In this document: positions 25,160-61,143 of the stretch, one piece after another | How positions within the stretch are numbered: position 1 is the stretch's first letter | Layout: the number at the start of each line of letters is the position of its first letter | Source: Fibrobacter sp. | GTDB lineage: Bacteria; Fibrobacterota; Fibrobacteria; Fibrobacterales; Fibrobacteraceae | Assembly: GCA_017412605.1 (NCBI GenBank) | Contig: JAFPWY010000012.1 | Span: 124,001-188,000 of the forward strand | Reading direction: 5' to 3' | DNA length: 64,000 nt | The notes under the pieces: generated by a model | Told to the model about the DNA's origin: nothing | What the model saw: only the letters and a program-made list of their open reading frames with translations | The model's database searches: none | Program-made: the position numbers and the translations under genes

Positions 25160-25984
25160 ATGAAACCAATAACGGAATATAATGATTATCGCTGCTGCAT
25201 GCAGGACTTTTACGATGAATGTAAGAGGACGGGGTCGTTTACATGGCGTGAATTTGCGCGTCTAGCAGGCTTCACTTCGCCAACGTACTTAAAGTTAGTG
25301 TGCGAAGGGAAAAGCAGCCTCAGCGAACTTGGAATCGAAAGGGTCGCGTCGGCCATGAACTTGGGTGGCTTCGAATGTGCTTATTTCCGCTATTTGGTGC
25401 GGTATAATCAGGCTAAGGATGACGAAACTAAAAAGAACGCCTTCGCCAGCATGAAGGATATCGCGAACGCCAACAAGATTCGTGTGGTTGACGCAGACGC
25501 TTTCACTTATTTTGAATCTTGGAAAAATCCGGTTTTGCGTGAACTCGTGGCGATGATGCCGGGGGCCACTCCCGAGGCTGTTGCCGAAATGTGCTGGCAG
25601 CCAATTACTGCTGATGAAGTCCGTAAATCCTTGGACTTTATGGTGAGTGTCGGAATTTTGAAGCGCAAGTCCAAGAATGTCTATGTGCAGACGGATAAGG
25701 GCCTGGTCGGAAATTCCGAAGTGATGCCTTTGGTGGTCCGCTCCATGCACCGTGAAATGGCGGGCTTTGCGCAGAAGGCTATTGACGCATTTGATATCCA
25801 GGAACGTGATGTTTCCGGCGTGACCATGGGGATTGACCGCGATGCCTATGAACAGATTGTGCGGGAGTTGGACTCCTGCCGCAGAAAGATTGTGGCTATT
25901 GCCAACATGAGTAAGGAACCTTGTCAAGTTTATCGCTTGAACTTGCAGATGTTCCCATTGTCAAAAAATACACTGAATAAATAG
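25160..25984 (+). CDS. TIGR02147 family putative regulator
   Basis: The start at 25160 is fixed by GGAG five bases upstream. The 274-aa soluble protein matches the TIGR02147 family, largely restricted to Fibrobacter and relatives: MKPITEYNDYRCCMQDFYDE, FTWREFARLAGFTSPTYLKL (helix-turn-helix-like, residues ~25-55), FESWKNPVLREL (~115), and a C-terminal FPLSK. It is thought to be a transcription regulator. The lipoprotein gene begins 10 bp downstream. A close paralogue at 57319 is also followed by lipoproteins. Confidence 0.85.
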   Translation: MKPITEYNDYRCCMQDFYDECKRTGSFTWREFARLAGFTSPTYLKLVCEGKSSLSELGIERVASAMNLGGFECAYFRYLVRYNQAKDDETKKNAFASMKDIANANKIRVVDADAFTYFESWKNPVLRELVAMMPGATPEAVAEMCWQPITADEVRKSLDFMVSVGILKRKSKNVYVQTDKGLVGNSEVMPLVVRSMHREMAGFAQKAIDAFDIQERDVSGVTMGIDRDAYEQIVRELDSCRRKIVAIANMSKEPCQVYRLNLQMFPLSKNTLNK

Positions 25985-25994
25985 GAGGGATGAC

Positions 25995-27827
25995 ATGTCT
26001 AACTATATAAAAACAAATATTCTTTGCTTGGGCTTGTTATGTGCCCTTTCATTGATCGCGTGCACGGAGACTTCCGAAAATGCACAAAATTACGGAACGA
26101 CCGAAGAAAAGAATGCCTTCTGGGATGAAGCGTCGAATCTTAAGGCTTGGAATGTCATGGAGGGTTCCGAAATTAAGCTGGAAGCGAACAAAAAGACCTT
26201 GTCGGGTCGAGTATCCTTCGAGAAATCAGGAAATGATAGCAGTCGTGCCGGAATTGTCTCTGACGTTTCCAACACGGATGGTTCTCCAACCGATCTTTCT
26301 TTGGATAATGACGGCTTGTGCATTGTGTACCAGTCCGACTTTATCGTGGAAGTTCGCCTTGATACGGCAGACTATGCCAGTTCTTCTGTGGACAAGGATT
26401 TGCCTTTTGTTCGCCTGAGTGAAAAGGATTTGGTGACCGGAAGTCATTGCGTATCTTGGATGGATTTCAAGATGAAAAATTCGGATGACGTAGATGGATC
26501 TATGTATGTCAAGAATGTGCGTTCTGTGCAGTTGGTCTTTGTGGGCAAGTCGGGTTCATCGGGTAACTTTGACATTCAGCGGCTGACTCCTTATGTTCGC
26601 TCGGATTTGTGGTTTGGTAAATTATCGGCTGCTCAAGTAGAGACCGGTTTTGCTAAAGGCGATGAAGGAACTTCTGGCGAGATGATCTTCATTGAAGATT
26701 CTTCTCAAGCCTATATTGATTGGAAATATGACATATTTGACATCGACCCCGATATGCCGCCTTACTCCGAAATAGATGCCAATATTGTATTCAGTGACTC
26801 CAATTCCAATCCGGATGTCGGTTTTGAATTCCTTGTTGCGGGTAAAACAACTAAAAACGACCAAGACTTTATTTACACGGCGGACGTGTCTGATTTGTGG
26901 ATGGGTATGTGTCTTGAATATAAATCGCAAATGGATATTGTAATGGAACTTGTTCCTGGGGATTCTTTGACAGGAACCCTTGAAAATAACGTCAAGACAA
27001 TGACTTTTGCGAAAAATAATAGTCAGGAAAATACTTGTATTGAATTCGCCGAGATCTTTTCGGGTTCCGATAGTGAAATCCTGAAGCATCTGGCAAAGAT
27101 CCGCGTTCTGTTCGCGAAGGAAAACAGGGCTGGTACGAGTTTATATCTTAGGCGGATCAGTGCTTTGGTGCCGGAAAATCTTTCTGTTAAGAAATATGGC
27201 GAATACAGAGAAGTAATACCTACGGATTCTTCTGAATATAAGTCTGGAAAAAGTTTTTTGTGGAATGGTGCCGTTGATGGAGCTCATGTGAATCTCGGCA
27301 TTGCAAATGCTCCTTCTGGAGGAATTTGGACAAATGCTCCTGAGCAACCTGATATGTTTCTTTACTTGTTCCCCGATGACGTGGTGGCCGATGATGAGGG
27401 AAATTTCATACCGTCCTTGGTTAGCAAGTATCATGGCATCACACTTAATATGAAAGGTGGAACAACGACGAGATGTCCTGATATCGATTGTTATGGGACT
27501 ATAGGTTTTAATACTGTTAGTTCAAATTTGGAACCGGCTGATATCAGCGCATGGGATGGCTTCTGCATACATTATCGTACTGGTAATAAAATTATAATTG
27601 TCATTTTTACAGACGTTTCTGAAAAAAAATACTGGACTGCTGATGTTGAATATTCCGATGATATGGTATGGGGTAAAGTATCTTGGGATGCTTTCAAAAA
27701 TAACGATAAAAAATCGAATGAAAAAATTGAGGATGCTTTAGGGAAGATTACTAAGATTCTGTTGCTTCCTTATAAAGGAAAAACTTTCGTCGACAAGTTC
27801 GGTTCCTACGACCAATGCGGTGATTAA
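25995..27827 (+). CDS. Large lipoprotein with three jelly-roll-like repeats
   Basis: AGGAGG precedes the ATG. The signal peptide MSNYIKTNILCLGLLCALSLIAC has a lipobox. Three diverged ~170-200-aa modules are visible (approx. residues 35-205, 205-395, 410-600). Each contains an LCIVY/MCLEY/FCIHY-like strand followed by CVSW/CIEF/VSWDAF and a late VQLVFVGK/IRVLFAKE/ILLLPYKG strand, a pattern like CBM11-type beta-sandwiches. The gene is visibly more AT-rich than its neighbours. It is the partner of the upstream TIGR02147 gene; function unknown. Confidence 0.7.
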   Translation: MSNYIKTNILCLGLLCALSLIACTETSENAQNYGTTEEKNAFWDEASNLKAWNVMEGSEIKLEANKKTLSGRVSFEKSGNDSSRAGIVSDVSNTDGSPTDLSLDNDGLCIVYQSDFIVEVRLDTADYASSSVDKDLPFVRLSEKDLVTGSHCVSWMDFKMKNSDDVDGSMYVKNVRSVQLVFVGKSGSSGNFDIQRLTPYVRSDLWFGKLSAAQVETGFAKGDEGTSGEMIFIEDSSQAYIDWKYDIFDIDPDMPPYSEIDANIVFSDSNSNPDVGFEFLVAGKTTKNDQDFIYTADVSDLWMGMCLEYKSQMDIVMELVPGDSLTGTLENNVKTMTFAKNNSQENTCIEFAEIFSGSDSEILKHLAKIRVLFAKENRAGTSLYLRRISALVPENLSVKKYGEYREVIPTDSSEYKSGKSFLWNGAVDGAHVNLGIANAPSGGIWTNAPEQPDMFLYLFPDDVVADDEGNFIPSLVSKYHGITLNMKGGTTTRCPDIDCYGTIGFNTVSSNLEPADISAWDGFCIHYRTGNKIIIVIFTDVSEKKYWTADVEYSDDMVWGKVSWDAFKNNDKKSNEKIEDALGKITKILLLPYKGKTFVDKFGSYDQCGD

Positions 27828-53441: not shown

Positions 53442-53463
53442 CCGACATAGAAGGAGGTTGGTT

Positions 53464-55077
53464 TTGAAAAGGTTTTTTATTGCAGCATCTTTGTTGTTTT
53501 TCCCTGTTTTTTTTGGTTGTGACGATGGCAAGGGGTCTGAATCGGCAATCGTCATTGCATCCGATGAACCGGAAAGTTCCAGCAGCTTTATAATTCCGTC
53601 CAGTTCTTCTGAAAAAATAGTGAGTTCGTCGAACGAGGTTTCCAGTTCGTCTGTTTCGATTAAACGGTCTTCCAGCAGCATTGCGAGCAGTTCGTCCTTT
53701 GCAGGGGCTTGTAAGTCTGTCGACGAATGCCTGAACCCGGATATAAGGTACAGAACGTTTATCGATGAACGCGATGGGCATGAGTACAGGTTCGTATATA
53801 TCAACAACCGTTTCTGGATGGCCGAGAACCTGAACTATTTTGACACTGTTGCAGTTCCGGAACTCAAAGGGAACACATGGTGCTATGGTGATGACCCCAA
53901 GAATTGCGAAAGATATGGCAGGCTTTACAACTGGACTGCCGCTTCTAACTTTAACACGCAGCCACTCATATACGACACTATTCAAGGAATTTGCCCGTCC
54001 GGTTGGCATCTGCCCATATATGAGGATTATTATTCCTTGCTGAGCGAGGTCGAAGAACTTGATGGAAACAGTGGATATGTCATTAAAGCCTTGAGGACCA
54101 AGAATGGCTGGTTGAAAAATGATGGTTCGGATTTATTCGGCTTTTCGGCTATCCCTGCGGGATACAGGAACAATTTTGGACTTTTCGAAGATGAAAATGA
54201 GAGCGCAGCGTTCTGGAATCTTAATTGGAACTCGGGAACCCATCCCTATGCGTTTGCATTCAGTAACTTTGAAAATGCCGCGTATGGGAACTTAAGTTAC
54301 GACAAGATTGAAAATGATACTTCCGCCTTCTCTATCCGCTGTATCAAAAATATCGGTCGCGATGAGCCCTCGCTCGTACCGAAGGATTCCATCGTAGATG
54401 AACGCGACGGCAAGGTTTATAAAACCGTCGTGATTGGCAACCAGACATGGATGGCTCAAAATCTGGACTATGCGGATTCGGTGGCGGTTCCCGAGATTGC
54501 GACGCGCTCCAGGTGCTTTACGGAGGCGGACAGTTCATGCGAACTGTTCGGTCGCCTTTACGCGTTCTCCGTGGCAATTGACTCGACGGCTTTGGCCAAT
54601 GATCCAGACAATCCGCAAACTTGCGGAAGTTTTGTAATGTGCCCGGCGATATCGGATTCTGCGACGAGTCCCGTTAGGGGACTTTGCCCAGCGGGGTGGC
54701 ATATTCCGAACAAGGGCGAATGGGATGAACTGCTGCGCTATCTAACGGAGGACCTGAATCTGGACAGCAACACTGTGAATAGAGGCCTGAAAGCTGAATA
54801 TTCCTGGCGTTTCAGTGATCGTGGCACCGACGAGTTCGGTTTCACGGCTCTGCCAATCTCGGTCGATAATTTTGAAAGGGGTGCTTCTTATGACAAATCT
54901 TATGGAGAACAAATATCAATCTTTATGTCTTCGACATTGATGGCGTATCCCTCTGGATTAAGCCAGAACTATTATGTCGTCTGCATGGTGTTGTTCGAAA
55001 ACGTTTTCGATGCAAATCCGCGTGTTGGTGATATTGAGTCCCGTTACAAGTTCCCGATTCGTTGTATAAAGGACTAG
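53464..55077 (+). CDS. Lipoprotein with two FISUMP domains
   Basis: A TTG start at 53464 is set by AAGGAGG six bases upstream and yields lipoprotein signal MKRFFIAASLLFFPVFFGC. A Ser-rich linker (~35-85) is followed by two tandem Fibrobacter major paralogous domains. The first (~95-300) has RFVYINNRFWMAENLNYF and GICPSGWHLPIYEDYYSL; the second (~305-535) has KTVVIGNQTWMAQNLDYADS and GLCPAGWHIPNKGEWDELL. Each ends in SIRCIKN/PIRCIKD. Surface location, function unknown. Confidence 0.88.
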   Translation: MKRFFIAASLLFFPVFFGCDDGKGSESAIVIASDEPESSSSFIIPSSSSEKIVSSSNEVSSSSVSIKRSSSSIASSSSFAGACKSVDECLNPDIRYRTFIDERDGHEYRFVYINNRFWMAENLNYFDTVAVPELKGNTWCYGDDPKNCERYGRLYNWTAASNFNTQPLIYDTIQGICPSGWHLPIYEDYYSLLSEVEELDGNSGYVIKALRTKNGWLKNDGSDLFGFSAIPAGYRNNFGLFEDENESAAFWNLNWNSGTHPYAFAFSNFENAAYGNLSYDKIENDTSAFSIRCIKNIGRDEPSLVPKDSIVDERDGKVYKTVVIGNQTWMAQNLDYADSVAVPEIATRSRCFTEADSSCELFGRLYAFSVAIDSTALANDPDNPQTCGSFVMCPAISDSATSPVRGLCPAGWHIPNKGEWDELLRYLTEDLNLDSNTVNRGLKAEYSWRFSDRGTDEFGFTALPISVDNFERGASYDKSYGEQISIFMSSTLMAYPSGLSQNYYVVCMVLFENVFDANPRVGDIESRYKFPIRCIKD

Positions 55078-57180: not shown

Positions 57181-57194
57181 TGTATTATACATAA

Positions 57195-57320
57195 TGTATA
57201 GTATTTTCAATTTATCATCATAGAATTACTAGAATTTTATGATTTTTGCATAAAAAACTTGATTTTGTATAGTATTTTCTATTTGCATTTTTCAAAAATA
57301 TAACGTATATTATATAGTAT
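57195..57320 (+). promoter_or_regulatory. AT-rich control region with direct repeats before the TIGR02147 gene
   Basis: TGTATAGTATTTTC(A/T)ATTT occurs at 57195-57213 and 57266-57284; the core TATAGTAT recurs at 57313-57320 across the start codon. A -35 TTGCAT (57283-57288), 17-bp spacer and -10 TATATT (57306-57311) end 7 nt before the ATG. The repeats overlap the -35 side and the start site, so they are good operator candidates. Confidence 0.6.
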
Positions 57321-58152
57321 GAAGCCGATTCTCGAATATAAGGACTACCGCCTGTATATACAGGACTACTACGACGAGCGCAAGCGCTTGGGTGCGTTCT
57401 CGTGGCGTGAGTTCTGCAAGAGTGCCGGTTTTTCTTCGCCGAATTTCTTGAAGCTCGTTTGCCTGGGCGAAAGCAGGCTCGGTACGCCGAAAATTGAAAA
57501 TGTCGCGAACGCCATGGGACTTGTCGGTTACGAAAAGGATTACTTCCGCGAAATGGTCACGTTCTGCAACGCCAAGAAGGATTCCGTCAGGAAGGCTGCC
57601 CTTCTTGAAATGGAAAAAATCGCGCGCGAACACAGAATGCGCGTCGTCGACGGCGAGGCATTCCAGTATTACGAATCCTGGAAGTATCCAGTCTTGAGGG
57701 AACTGGCCCCGATGATGCCGGGAGCCAACCCACGCGATATCGCCGAAGAATGCAAGGAGCATGTGTCCGCCGAAGAGGTGCGCGACATCCTCAGTTTCTT
57801 GGTCAAGGCCGGGTTCCTGAAGAAGGACGGGGACAAGGTCTATTCCCGGACGGAACAGAACGTCATCGGCTCCAACGAGGCGTTGCCCATCGCCATCCGC
57901 GCCATGCACAAGGAGATGGCGAACATGGCGGCCCGCGCCGTCGACCGCTATTCTCCGAAAGAACGCTATTTTACCGGACTGACAATCGGCGTGAACGAGG
58001 AAGCGAGCAACAGGATTATCAACGAGATTGACGCCTGCTGCAAGAAGGTGCTCTCTATCGCCAACGAATATGACGATTCCGACCAGGTCTGTCGAATTAA
58101 TTTCCAATTTTTCCCGTTCACGGACAAGATAAAGGAGGCTTCGCATGCTTAA
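57319..58152 (+). CDS. TIGR02147 family putative regulator (paralogue)
   Basis: 277 aa, colinear with the protein at 25160: MKPILEYKDYRLYIQDYYDE, FSWREFCKSAGFSSPNFLKL, YESWKYPVLRELAPMMPG, MHKEMANMAARA and C-terminal FQFFPF. No membrane segment. There is no Shine-Dalgarno before the ATG and the -10 ends 7 nt upstream, so it may be leaderless. Its 3' end overlaps the start of the first of three lipoprotein genes by 8 bp, so the regulator and lipoproteins share a transcript. Confidence 0.87.
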   Translation: MKPILEYKDYRLYIQDYYDERKRLGAFSWREFCKSAGFSSPNFLKLVCLGESRLGTPKIENVANAMGLVGYEKDYFREMVTFCNAKKDSVRKAALLEMEKIAREHRMRVVDGEAFQYYESWKYPVLRELAPMMPGANPRDIAEECKEHVSAEEVRDILSFLVKAGFLKKDGDKVYSRTEQNVIGSNEALPIAIRAMHKEMANMAARAVDRYSPKERYFTGLTIGVNEEASNRIINEIDACCKKVLSIANEYDDSDQVCRINFQFFPFTDKIKEASHA

Positions 58153-58939
58153 GAATCTTGCTCTTGCCGCATGGTCACTCTCCTTGATGCTTGTCGTTGC
58201 GTGCTCTAGCGATGTGGATGTCGCTGGGGGAGGAACCATTGATCCCAACGCCAATAATAATACCGGTGTTGTAAACGGTTCAGAGATGAGCAGCTCGTCG
58301 GACGCTTCAATTAATTTATCTAATAATAGTGTGGATAACCCTGCCAGTAGCAGTGCCAAAACAGAAAGTCGTAACTCCGAAACAAAAAGCAGTTCTTCTG
58401 AAAAAAGAAGCAGTTCCTCAAAAGATAGAGGGTCGAATAATTTTGTCCCGGACATACCTTTATCTTCGTCTGATGATGAAGGTGATTCTATTCCTTCTCT
58501 GGACCCGTTCCCTAATCCTTCTATCCCGGACACAATTTATTACCAGGCAAGGAATTTCTCCGCCCAGTGCATCATCGACTATGTCAAAGTGGATTCGGCC
58601 GAACTTGTTCCCGTTACGGACGAACCGGTTGCCGCTGCGGACGTTCTGGGCGCATCAGCGTACAAGTCCGTCGACGGGGATTCCGTGAACATCTACCTGG
58701 ATGGCGCATATCTTAATACTCCCTGCGATTCGGCAGAAGAGGTTCAATTCTTCGAAGAAATCAATTCCGGAAACAAGATCCCTGTCGGCCTGGTGAACGA
58801 TACATTGTCGATGACCCTTCGCTGGGATAAAACTTGCGCCTGCGCCGCGACGGTCTCCTTTACGCTGGACAAGCCGGACACTGATTTCAACTACATCATT
58901 TTTGACTTATGGATGCCTATCCTGTTCCAGGAAAGGTAA
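58145..58939 (+). CDS. Lipoprotein 1 of the TIGR02147 cassette
   Basis: AAAGGAGG lies inside the regulator gene. Signal MLKNLALAAWSLSLMLVVAC with lipobox. Ser/Asn-rich linker (~40-125). The C-terminal domain (~135-264) contains NDTLSMTLRWDKTCACAATVSFTL, the D-T-L...C-x-C...F pattern shared with the two following lipoproteins. Unknown function; likely outer-membrane surface. Confidence 0.75.
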   Translation: MLKNLALAAWSLSLMLVVACSSDVDVAGGGTIDPNANNNTGVVNGSEMSSSSDASINLSNNSVDNPASSSAKTESRNSETKSSSSEKRSSSSKDRGSNNFVPDIPLSSSDDEGDSIPSLDPFPNPSIPDTIYYQARNFSAQCIIDYVKVDSAELVPVTDEPVAAADVLGASAYKSVDGDSVNIYLDGAYLNTPCDSAEEVQFFEEINSGNKIPVGLVNDTLSMTLRWDKTCACAATVSFTLDKPDTDFNYIIFDLWMPILFQER

Positions 58940-58952
58940 AGGGGGTTGACAT

Positions 58953-60542
58953 ATGAAGAAGGTTCTTGCAAACATTGCCATCTCGGCACTCATTCCGTTG
59001 ACCCTCGCCCTTGTGGCCTGCGGGGACGAAAAGACTTCAAGCGTGATTGAAGTGGATTCGCCTGCCATCTCCGAGGGCGATACCGCCAAGAGCGTGACGA
59101 ATCAAGAAACGGATGTCGTCTCCAAGGATGATACGACCCCGGACACTACCGTCCAGAAATCGGATTCGACATCCGATAAAACGGTAATTGCCAATTCGGG
59201 CCCTTGTAGCTTGAATCATAACGGAGACTGGCATACGGCTTACTTGGTTAATAACGAAAAAGTCGGTTACCAGATTGTTATTCCGGATGCATCTGCCATT
59301 GGATATTACACAAATAAAGAACTTTATGCCGAACGCGTGGGGGATACCCTGCATGTCTGGGAAAACGAAACAATTGCCATATTGGCTTGGATATGTTATG
59401 TGTATTACACCTTTAATATTCCGGCAGAAGATGCGGATATCAAGTATTTTAAATACTTTGAGAGAGTTTTCAAAGTTGTTCCTGGCCCCGCTCCCGAAAA
59501 ATCACCGGATACGCTAAGTATTCTTGCTCCACGCCTGGGGGCAGACGGAGATACAGTTCCATATCTGGGACCAGACGGAAATCTTCTGCCCGAGGCATTG
59601 GATACACTCTATAGAATATGCACAATCAGCCCGTCTGCCGAGGGAATTTACGATTCCAAATGTGTCACAATCCCGTCAGACATCCATGAAGTCACTTCGT
59701 CCAATTCGACGGCAAGGTCATCGTCGTCTGTTTCGGCAAAAAGTTCGTCCTCGTCTGCAGCAAAAGTTGCGGGCACGCACCAGGTCATTACGGATGCCCA
59801 AAACCAATGCACAGCAAATACAGATACAACCGCCGCACGTTATGCGTACAGGTATGTCAGCACCGAGCGCACGGGTTTTACCTTGGAGAACCTTAAGCTT
59901 ACCTACGGCATTGTCGCCGATACGCTGGATGTCGACGTGTCGGGGGACACGGTTTACGTGAAGGCGGTGTTCGATTTCACGAATGCGGAGAGAATGTATT
60001 GCCAATCCCAAATACATTTTTCCGTAGAGAACAATCCGGCCTTTTCGCATGCAAAGTTTGTCGCATTCTTTGACAGTCGTGATGACGCCGAACCAGTCAT
60101 ATTGGAAATCTACGATATGGATGTGATTACGGTTGAAGAAGCGACACGCCAGTATGCAAAAGACATAACGGTTGAATGCAAGAACGACAGGCAGACGCTC
60201 GACAGGCCGGCGCTGCAGGCAGTAACCCTGCTCCCGGATTTCGACACCACTTCGACGAAGCATATCGCCGGGAGAGTAGTCGGCGATGACGAGTTCGACA
60301 TGATTCTCATCAACGAACTCGACGTGGGTTGCGGCGTGGAGAACGTGAACTTCGAAGTCTCGGCCTCGAACGACACGCTGTACGTTCAGCCTTCCGCCGG
60401 ATTGTTTGGCACGAACTGCATTTGTCCGTCGCGAATCAATTTCAAGATAGAACAGAATTCCCGTTTCTCGAATACCAACGTTCTCGTATTCGGCCATTTT
60501 GAACCGATGCCGCTTGTGACAGCTGTTCCAATAAACAATTAA
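58953..60542 (+). CDS. Lipoprotein 2 of the TIGR02147 cassette, three copies of the shared domain
   Basis: Signal MKKVLANIAISALIPLTLALVAC. Three modules of the shared type: ~75-185 (GDTLHVWENET...EDADIKYFKYF...VVPGPAPE), ~275-385 (ADTLDVDVSGDTVYVKAVFDF...YCQSQIHFSVE) and ~395-529 (NDTLYVQPSAG...NCICPSRINFKIE). A Ser-rich linker (SSNSTARSSSSVSAKSSSSS) separates the first two. It follows lipoprotein 1 by 13 bp. Confidence 0.75.
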   Translation: MKKVLANIAISALIPLTLALVACGDEKTSSVIEVDSPAISEGDTAKSVTNQETDVVSKDDTTPDTTVQKSDSTSDKTVIANSGPCSLNHNGDWHTAYLVNNEKVGYQIVIPDASAIGYYTNKELYAERVGDTLHVWENETIAILAWICYVYYTFNIPAEDADIKYFKYFERVFKVVPGPAPEKSPDTLSILAPRLGADGDTVPYLGPDGNLLPEALDTLYRICTISPSAEGIYDSKCVTIPSDIHEVTSSNSTARSSSSVSAKSSSSSAAKVAGTHQVITDAQNQCTANTDTTAARYAYRYVSTERTGFTLENLKLTYGIVADTLDVDVSGDTVYVKAVFDFTNAERMYCQSQIHFSVENNPAFSHAKFVAFFDSRDDAEPVILEIYDMDVITVEEATRQYAKDITVECKNDRQTLDRPALQAVTLLPDFDTTSTKHIAGRVVGDDEFDMILINELDVGCGVENVNFEVSASNDTLYVQPSAGLFGTNCICPSRINFKIEQNSRFSNTNVLVFGHFEPMPLVTAVPINN

Positions 60543-60574
60543 GACGATTAACAAAAAAATCAAGGGGAGGAAAT

Positions 60575-61039
60575 ATGAAAAAGACGCTTGTATACGCTAT
60601 TGCACTGTCGCTTGCTCTTGTCGCCTGCGGAGACGACACCTCGTCGGGTCCTTCTGAGCAAAGTTCCGCACGAGAAGTGAGCATGTCCTTCAAGGGCTGC
60701 TACGAAAACCTTTCCAAGAAGGTATCCTTGTTGAAAGAGAGCTCGGAAGATTTGCCGTTGGCATATCTGTATAACGAAAACGGCCAATACCGGTTGATGA
60801 TTCCGAAAATGGATGACTATTGCGGATTTGACAAGGTGATGATGGACGTGGAACGTTCTGGCGATACGCTGCGAATCGATGTCACGGCGATGATTCCGAC
60901 AGCGTGCAAGTGCGTGAGCGACCATTGGTTCGATATAGAGGCAAGGGATGCGGATATCAAGTACTTTGCGCACGCTCCTTACAATAAAAAAGAGACGGTG
61001 TACGAGGTGGTCCCTGGCCCCGCGCCTGAAGATCTGTAA
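60575..61039 (+). CDS. Lipoprotein 3 of the TIGR02147 cassette, single domain
   Basis: GGGAGG precedes the ATG. Signal MKKTLVYAIALSLALVAC. The 154-aa protein is one copy of the shared domain: SGDTLRIDVTAMIPTACKCV, FDIEARDADIKYFAHAPY and YEVVPGPAPEDL, the last two nearly repeating lipoprotein 2's first module. It is the minimal form of the domain. A terminator follows at 61115. Confidence 0.75.
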   Translation: MKKTLVYAIALSLALVACGDDTSSGPSEQSSAREVSMSFKGCYENLSKKVSLLKESSEDLPLAYLYNENGQYRLMIPKMDDYCGFDKVMMDVERSGDTLRIDVTAMIPTACKCVSDHWFDIEARDADIKYFAHAPYNKKETVYEVVPGPAPEDL

Positions 61040-61114
61040 TAATTCTTTTTTGAGCATTGATTTCACGCACTATAGTCAATTGCCTTGAAGAAGCGAACTA
61101 AATTTTCCAAAACC

Positions 61115-61143
61115 AAAGGAGGCCCGGCCTCCTTTTTTTTATT
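61115..61143 (+). terminator. Terminator of the TIGR02147/lipoprotein cassette
   Basis: AAAGGAGGC-CCG-GCCTCCTTT, 9-bp perfect stem followed by TTTTTATTTTT. Confidence 0.9.

Follow-up and report, generated by a model that had tools for sequence, protein, structure and literature searches.

Organization of the regulator–lipoprotein unit

The window analysed here is a stretch of 64,000 nucleotides from Fibrobacter sp. It contains a gene of the TIGR02147/DUF4423 family followed by three lipoprotein genes, all on the same strand (Table 1). The regulator ORF encodes 277 amino acids, and its 3' end overlaps the gene of lipoprotein 1 by 8 bp. Gaps of 13 nt and 32 nt separate lipoprotein 1 from lipoprotein 2 and lipoprotein 2 from lipoprotein 3, respectively. 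An intrinsic terminator closes the unit; three other terminator-like matches returned by the terminator scan in this region are weak. Genes and lipoproteins were called with home-made scripts and patterns, and lipoboxes were assigned by a pattern test.

The initial annotation had described a regulator overlapping a three-lipoprotein cassette (module B), and its coordinates, the 8-bp overlap, the short gaps and the closing terminator are all confirmed. It had also proposed that the regulator is a paralog of a second regulator in the window, that of module A (25160-25984), and the two proteins are indeed 47% identical. Module A (25160-27827) comprises its regulator and one lipoprotein of 610 aa.

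Table 1. Positions in the window of the features assigned to the regulator–lipoprotein unit
Feature	Position	Strand	Basis
Distal candidate operator, imperfect palindrome TATTATACA-TAA-TGTATAGTA; its right arm starts the repeat word TGTATAGTATTTTC	57183-57203	.	Palindrome scan
Repeat word TGTATAGTATTTTC, distal copy	57195-57208	+	Exact genome-wide word search
Repeat word TGTATAGTATTTTC, proximal copy, 71 bp downstream, directly upstream of the predicted -35	57266-57279	+	
Predicted -35, TTGCAT	57283-57288	+	Sequence; an overlapping register with an 18-nt spacer was also found
Predicted -10, TATATT, 7 nt before the start codon	57306-57311	+	Sequence-based prediction
TIGR02147/DUF4423 regulator with two predicted helix-turn-helix domains	57319-58152	+	Profile matches, structure model
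Shine-Dalgarno sequence GGAGG of lipoprotein 1, within the regulator gene	58134-58138	+	Sequence
Lipoprotein 1: signal peptide, lipobox Cys20, tag, Ser-rich linker, beta domain with conserved cysteines	58145-58939	+	
Tag VAGGGTIDPN, directly after the lipobox of lipoprotein 1	58220-58249	+	Motif statistics
Lipoprotein 2, three predicted beta-sandwich domains	58953-60542	+	Model, sequence comparison
Lipoprotein 3, homolog of the N-terminal domain of lipoprotein 2	60575-61039	+	Sequence comparison
Intrinsic terminator (hairpin and T-run) ending the unit	61115-61143	+	Sequence, terminator scan

Paralogs in the genome and in the phylum

The 3.53-Mb genome contains 33 TIGR02147 genes. Downstream of every one of them, a lipoprotein gene lies on the same strand at distances from -17 to +18 nt, and 18 of these pairs overlap; the lipoprotein of locus 31, which has an unusual lipobox, was read from the printed sequence. 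Since all 33 paralogs show the same arrangement, a chance layout is excluded.

Of 56 loci in other genera of the phylum, about 53 also show the pairing: an automatic test recognized 41 of them, and in about 12 more a signal-peptide ORF was read by eye in the printed frames. One automatic match (L209, gap 43) looks spurious. No recognizable lipoprotein gene lies directly downstream of the TIGR02147 gene in L201, L202 and L216 (G102, G051, genus g23). The family itself is present in 141 of 151 sampled genomes of the phylum, with up to dozens of copies each, many of the relatives being metagenome-assembled genomes. No plasmid or phage record matched TIGR02147, so that an origin from mobile elements is unsupported. 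Rfam and a defence-system search likewise gave no match.

In L029 (G000:C11:317870-318577, minus strand), the TIGR02147 copy lacks the N-terminal ~34 codons together with the start codon, and the lipoprotein gene is intact; judging from the sequence, this regulator may have decayed. L039 (G000:C6:145233-155394) harbors four tandem regulator–lipoprotein cassettes, whose regulators have Shine-Dalgarno sites and different repeat words. This array is an apparent recent local expansion.

Structure of the regulator

The regulator matches TIGR02147 over the full length of the profile (280.5 bits against a cut-off of 50; positions 1-271 of 272) and Pfam DUF4423 with 82.9 bits (cut-off 30). An AlphaFold2 model built from 33 paralogs reached a pLDDT of 86.5. 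Its N-terminal domain (residues 7-90) resembles HigA and the P22 c2 repressor with moderate strength; the best HigA alignment covers model residues 8-89 (Z 8.5, rmsd 2.5 over 74 residues), a moderate match that is not accompanied by a Pfam XRE match. Residues ~109-184 form a winged helix-turn-helix (HTH) of ArsR-type resemblance, again of moderate strength (Z ~7.4). Fold comparison of the model matched nothing convincing to the C-terminal part, a PDB sequence search gave nothing significant, and Foldseek returned E values no better than 0.18. As the fold matches are modest, the HTH assignment rests on the model in combination with weak matches. The TIGR02147 protein is predicted to be a cytoplasmic DNA-binding regulator with a lambda-repressor-like N-terminal HTH and a winged HTH.

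Two known classes were considered and rejected. In a HigA-type toxin–antitoxin module a toxin gene would be expected; it is absent, and the next downstream gene encodes a lipoprotein in all 33 loci. In the RRNPP class of peptide sensors, TPR-like helical repeats would be expected in the C-terminal part; after the winged HTH the model has only two long helices (189-210 and 227-249), and no TPR family matches.

Promoter and translation signals

A -10-like hexamer is found 6-9 nt before the ATG in about a dozen regulators, including that of module B. With a hexamer so near the start codon, a leaderless mRNA is predicted for the regulator, and the repeats described below would then be DNA elements. 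Control by an RNA leader was rejected, the repeats being located upstream of the predicted transcription start.

Among 32 loci, a Shine-Dalgarno site precedes lipoprotein 1 in 28 and the regulator in only 10. Translation of the module B regulator is probably weak, its predicted leaderless mRNA being devoid of such a site; the gene of lipoprotein 1 that overlaps it carries a strong site. A single autoregulated transcript would thereby yield little regulator and much surface lipoprotein.

Paired repeats upstream of the promoter

The word TGTATAGTATTTTC has two exact matches in the 3.53-Mb genome, both at the promoter of its own regulator. The same holds for the two nearest paralogs: each word of loci 26, 27 and 28 (module B and these two) occurs exactly twice genome-wide, both times at its own promoter. 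The genome-wide search covered these three words, which were picked after viewing the data. The words form direct repeats; they differ among loci and match inside one locus.

With a simple score, 11 of 32 loci of the genome reach at least 8 at a spacing of 71-74 bp, compared with 0.9 loci on average and never more than 5 in 200 dinucleotide shuffles. In a set of 71 relatives, 61 score at least 7 at 69-74 bp, and eleven other spacing windows give 1-9; these relatives are kin of one another, so that 61 of 71 is not a count of independent events. The scores of 7 and 8 and the spacing windows were chosen after viewing the data, and the set of 71 had also been viewed before its spacing window was fixed. 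Distal and proximal copies of the same locus pair better than random pairs (permutation p=1e-4). Several distal copies are palindromic in the palindrome scan, the best being those of loci 13, 19 and 28; that of module B is imperfect.

Paired sites are not detected in all paralogs, nor generally outside the family, where the site layout must be a different one, as far as the sequences indicate. No repeat pair of this layout is present upstream of module A (locus 16). There, GTATCAT precedes the -35, and the inverted form ATGATAC sits in the interval from the -35 to the -10, a layout unlike that of module B.

The regulator most likely recognizes a locus-specific site that occurs twice, as a palindrome in the distal position and as a half-site that adjoins the -35 region some seven helical turns further downstream. 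Within the genome it would control its own operon alone. Regarding the sign of regulation, we lean modestly towards activation, because both sites lie upstream of the -35, at about -47 and -118 from the predicted start, and an operator in this position is typical of activators. The regulator may instead be a repressor that brings the two sites together in a DNA loop until some signal relieves it, with the same layout and the opposite sign. The spacing in helical turns and the lambda-repressor-like fold would suit such a loop, and so would the near-consensus -35 and -10 hexamers of several promoters, which fit a repressor better than an activator; given the position of both sites, we rate repression as a sizeable possibility that falls short of an even chance.

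Co-variation of sites and HTH residues

The class of the site tracks the N-terminal HTH of the adjacent regulator. The comparison covered 53 regulators (50 relatives and loci 26-28), sorted into site classes according to bases 1-7 of the proximal site. Of the 25 protein positions that follow site class best, 13 fall within residues 25-70, a segment in which 27 of the 169 variable positions are located (hypergeometric p=4e-6). At position 51, Q occurs in 26 of 26 GTATAAT loci and K in 7 of 7 GTATCAT loci. These statistics ignore phylogeny, and the remaining positions of each protein act as an internal control; as all positions of one protein share one tree, the concentration in the HTH is informative. 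The regulator appears to read only its own promoter.

Alternatively, the repeats could be sites of a global regulator or a nucleoid protein, with the TIGR02147 protein acting elsewhere or on other targets. The high A+T content of these regions and a GTATCAT-like core common to many loci would fit this view. Nevertheless, the words are locus-specific yet match within a locus, three are unique to their own promoter genome-wide, and they co-vary with HTH residues of the adjacent protein, which makes this explanation improbable.

Tag and domains of the lipoproteins

The lipoboxes of lipoproteins 1, 2 and 3 read LVVAC, LALVAC and LALVAC. In lipoprotein 1, C20, G29, G30, D33 and P34 are invariant among relatives. 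Across the paralogs the tag, which follows the acylated cysteine, has roughly the motif [AG]G-x-[TS]-x-E-x-x-N. In the 33 lipoproteins 1, no column other than the cysteine is invariant, with one tag glycine nearly so. The motif places 27 of 33 lipoproteins 1 above the 95th percentile of 24 control lipoproteins (p ~1e-9), a separation that is somewhat flattering since the motif positions were fitted on the same set. Lipoproteins 2 and 3, both members of the control set, lack the tag.

In enterococci, lipoprotein-derived pheromones are sensed. By analogy, the tag or signal peptide of lipoprotein 1 might be processed to a peptide sensed by the regulator, for which the phylum-wide coupling of tag and regulator and weak Foldseek matches to PrgX and ComR could be cited. 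These matches are not significant (E about 1), the model has no TPR-type helical repeat and the operon no peptide importer, and we regard peptide sensing as very improbable.

Domains carried by the lipoproteins 1 of the genome include FISUMP (9 of 33), carboxypeptidase-regulatory-like (7), pectate lyase, concanavalin-like lectin and CBM_4_9. The FISUMP profile TIGR02145 has no match in the three lipoproteins of the unit. Elsewhere in the window, the gene at 53458-55077 encodes two FISUMP-like repeats and resembles several of the lipoproteins linked to TIGR02147; no TIGR02147 gene adjoins it.

Over 96 aa, lipoprotein 3 shares 39.6% identity with the N-terminal domain of lipoprotein 2 (E 6e-11). 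A model of lipoprotein 2 of moderate confidence (pLDDT 66) has three beta-sandwich regions, for which Foldseek gave nothing significant. In the clade of module B, the three lipoproteins combine related beta domains in mosaic fashion. Compared with the window lipoprotein 1, those of L089, L090 and L092 have an identical or near-identical C-terminal domain and a strongly different Ser-rich linker, suggesting recombination or uneven selection inside one gene. In a proteomic study of F. succinogenes, 40 of 49 quantified putative lipoproteins decrease on cellulose (PMC6851124); those genes could not be tied to TIGR02147.

Exchange of cargo between modules

The regulators had initially been read as conserved and their lipoprotein cargo as exchanged. 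Cargo does differ between modules: the lipoproteins 1 of modules A and B have no sequence similarity and may also, as initially proposed, differ in fold. The regulators of the nearest paralogs are 70-72% identical to that of module B, and homology of their lipoproteins 1 to lipoprotein 1 of module B is confined to the signal peptide and tag. Profile comparison of the window clade with the nearest-paralog clade aligns the first 45 residues alone (probability 97%), which places the swap after them. Nucleotide identity drops past the regulator and leader, without a sharp boundary. In L094, L098 and L099, the lipoprotein 1 slot holds a domain matching lipoprotein 2.

Over short distances cargo does follow the regulator, as 13 of 15 paralog pairs with at least 60% identity share cargo and orthologs have related lipoproteins. 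Much of the diversity is consequently duplication and divergence, along with domain shuffling. Ordinary tandem duplication, in which each regulator retains its own lipoprotein and cargo differences reflect fast divergence only, would explain these shared cargos. It sits poorly with the sharing of nothing beyond signal peptide and tag between the window module and its nearest paralogs, and with the lipoprotein 2-like domains in the slot of lipoprotein 1; as a full account we find it rather unlikely.

The accompanying proposal of a phase system is unsupported, no invertible or slipped-strand element having been noticed in an incidental look. We infer a nutrient-responsive role, also proposed, from the cargo domains as a possible one.

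Discussion

On balance, the unit probably belongs to a family of surface-lipoprotein cassettes that is present in many copies, each cassette autoregulated and privately addressed. This reading draws on the operon layout, the paired sites, the three unique words, the HTH co-variation, the tag and the change of cargo past it, all of them computed. The regulator would bind its sites and regulate its own operon in one or the other direction. Lipoprotein 1 starts with a signal peptide and the conserved tag; the domain that comes next is swapped among cassettes, and in the present unit two further lipoproteins back it. The lipoproteins are presumably exposed at the surface and may have a role in attachment to plant polysaccharides. 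Such a layout is found generally and points to insulated cassettes in which surface lipoproteins are under autoregulatory control.

The paired locus-specific repeats, the co-variation with the HTH, the tag of lipoprotein 1 and the change of cargo past signal peptide and tag are new. For TIGR02147/DUF4423, family models and a literature search yielded no assigned function; candidate operators, likely specificity residues and a constant lipoprotein partner now provide a first testable one. The phylum consists of fibre degraders, and the cassettes possibly explain how Fibrobacter manages its large surface-lipoprotein repertoire. Thirty-odd insulated regulator–operator pairs per cell would, if true, offer natural material for studying how cross-talk among paralogous regulators is avoided. 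More speculatively, and with considerable doubt on our part, cells throughout the phylum might each carry dozens of autoregulatory switches that are insulated from one another. Every switch would have an operator code of its own, read by its own HTH, and together they would set which tagged lipoproteins are displayed; with cargo swapped by recombination, surface identity would be combinatorial and possibly heterogeneous from cell to cell.

Comparison with known systems

The regulator is a full-length member of TIGR02147 (Fsuc_second)/DUF4423 above the curated cut-off, and like the family it occurs in many copies per genome. The family model comes without a function; the present analysis adds DNA binding as a predicted role, together with the paired sites and the constant association with a lipoprotein.

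Like the lambda CI and P22 c2 repressors and the HigA antitoxins, the regulator may have an N-terminal HTH fold, predicted with moderate strength, and its paired candidate sites near the own promoter recall cooperative autoregulation. It differs from them in the second, winged HTH, in the C-terminal part and in the linkage to lipoproteins, with neither a toxin nor a prophage.

One domain of lipoprotein 2 shows a weak likeness to NigD-like lipoproteins of Bacteroides (Z at most 4.3, VIA-align), with no sequence match, too weak to class lipoprotein 2 there. The local regulators of Bacteroides polysaccharide utilization loci (hybrid two-component systems and ECF sigma/anti-sigma pairs) offer a parallel in organization, since there, too, many paralogous regulators are located beside surface lipoprotein genes. 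Unlike those loci, the present unit has no membrane sensor, sigma factor or SusC/SusD pair, and its regulator is apparently cytoplasmic and encoded by the first gene of the operon.
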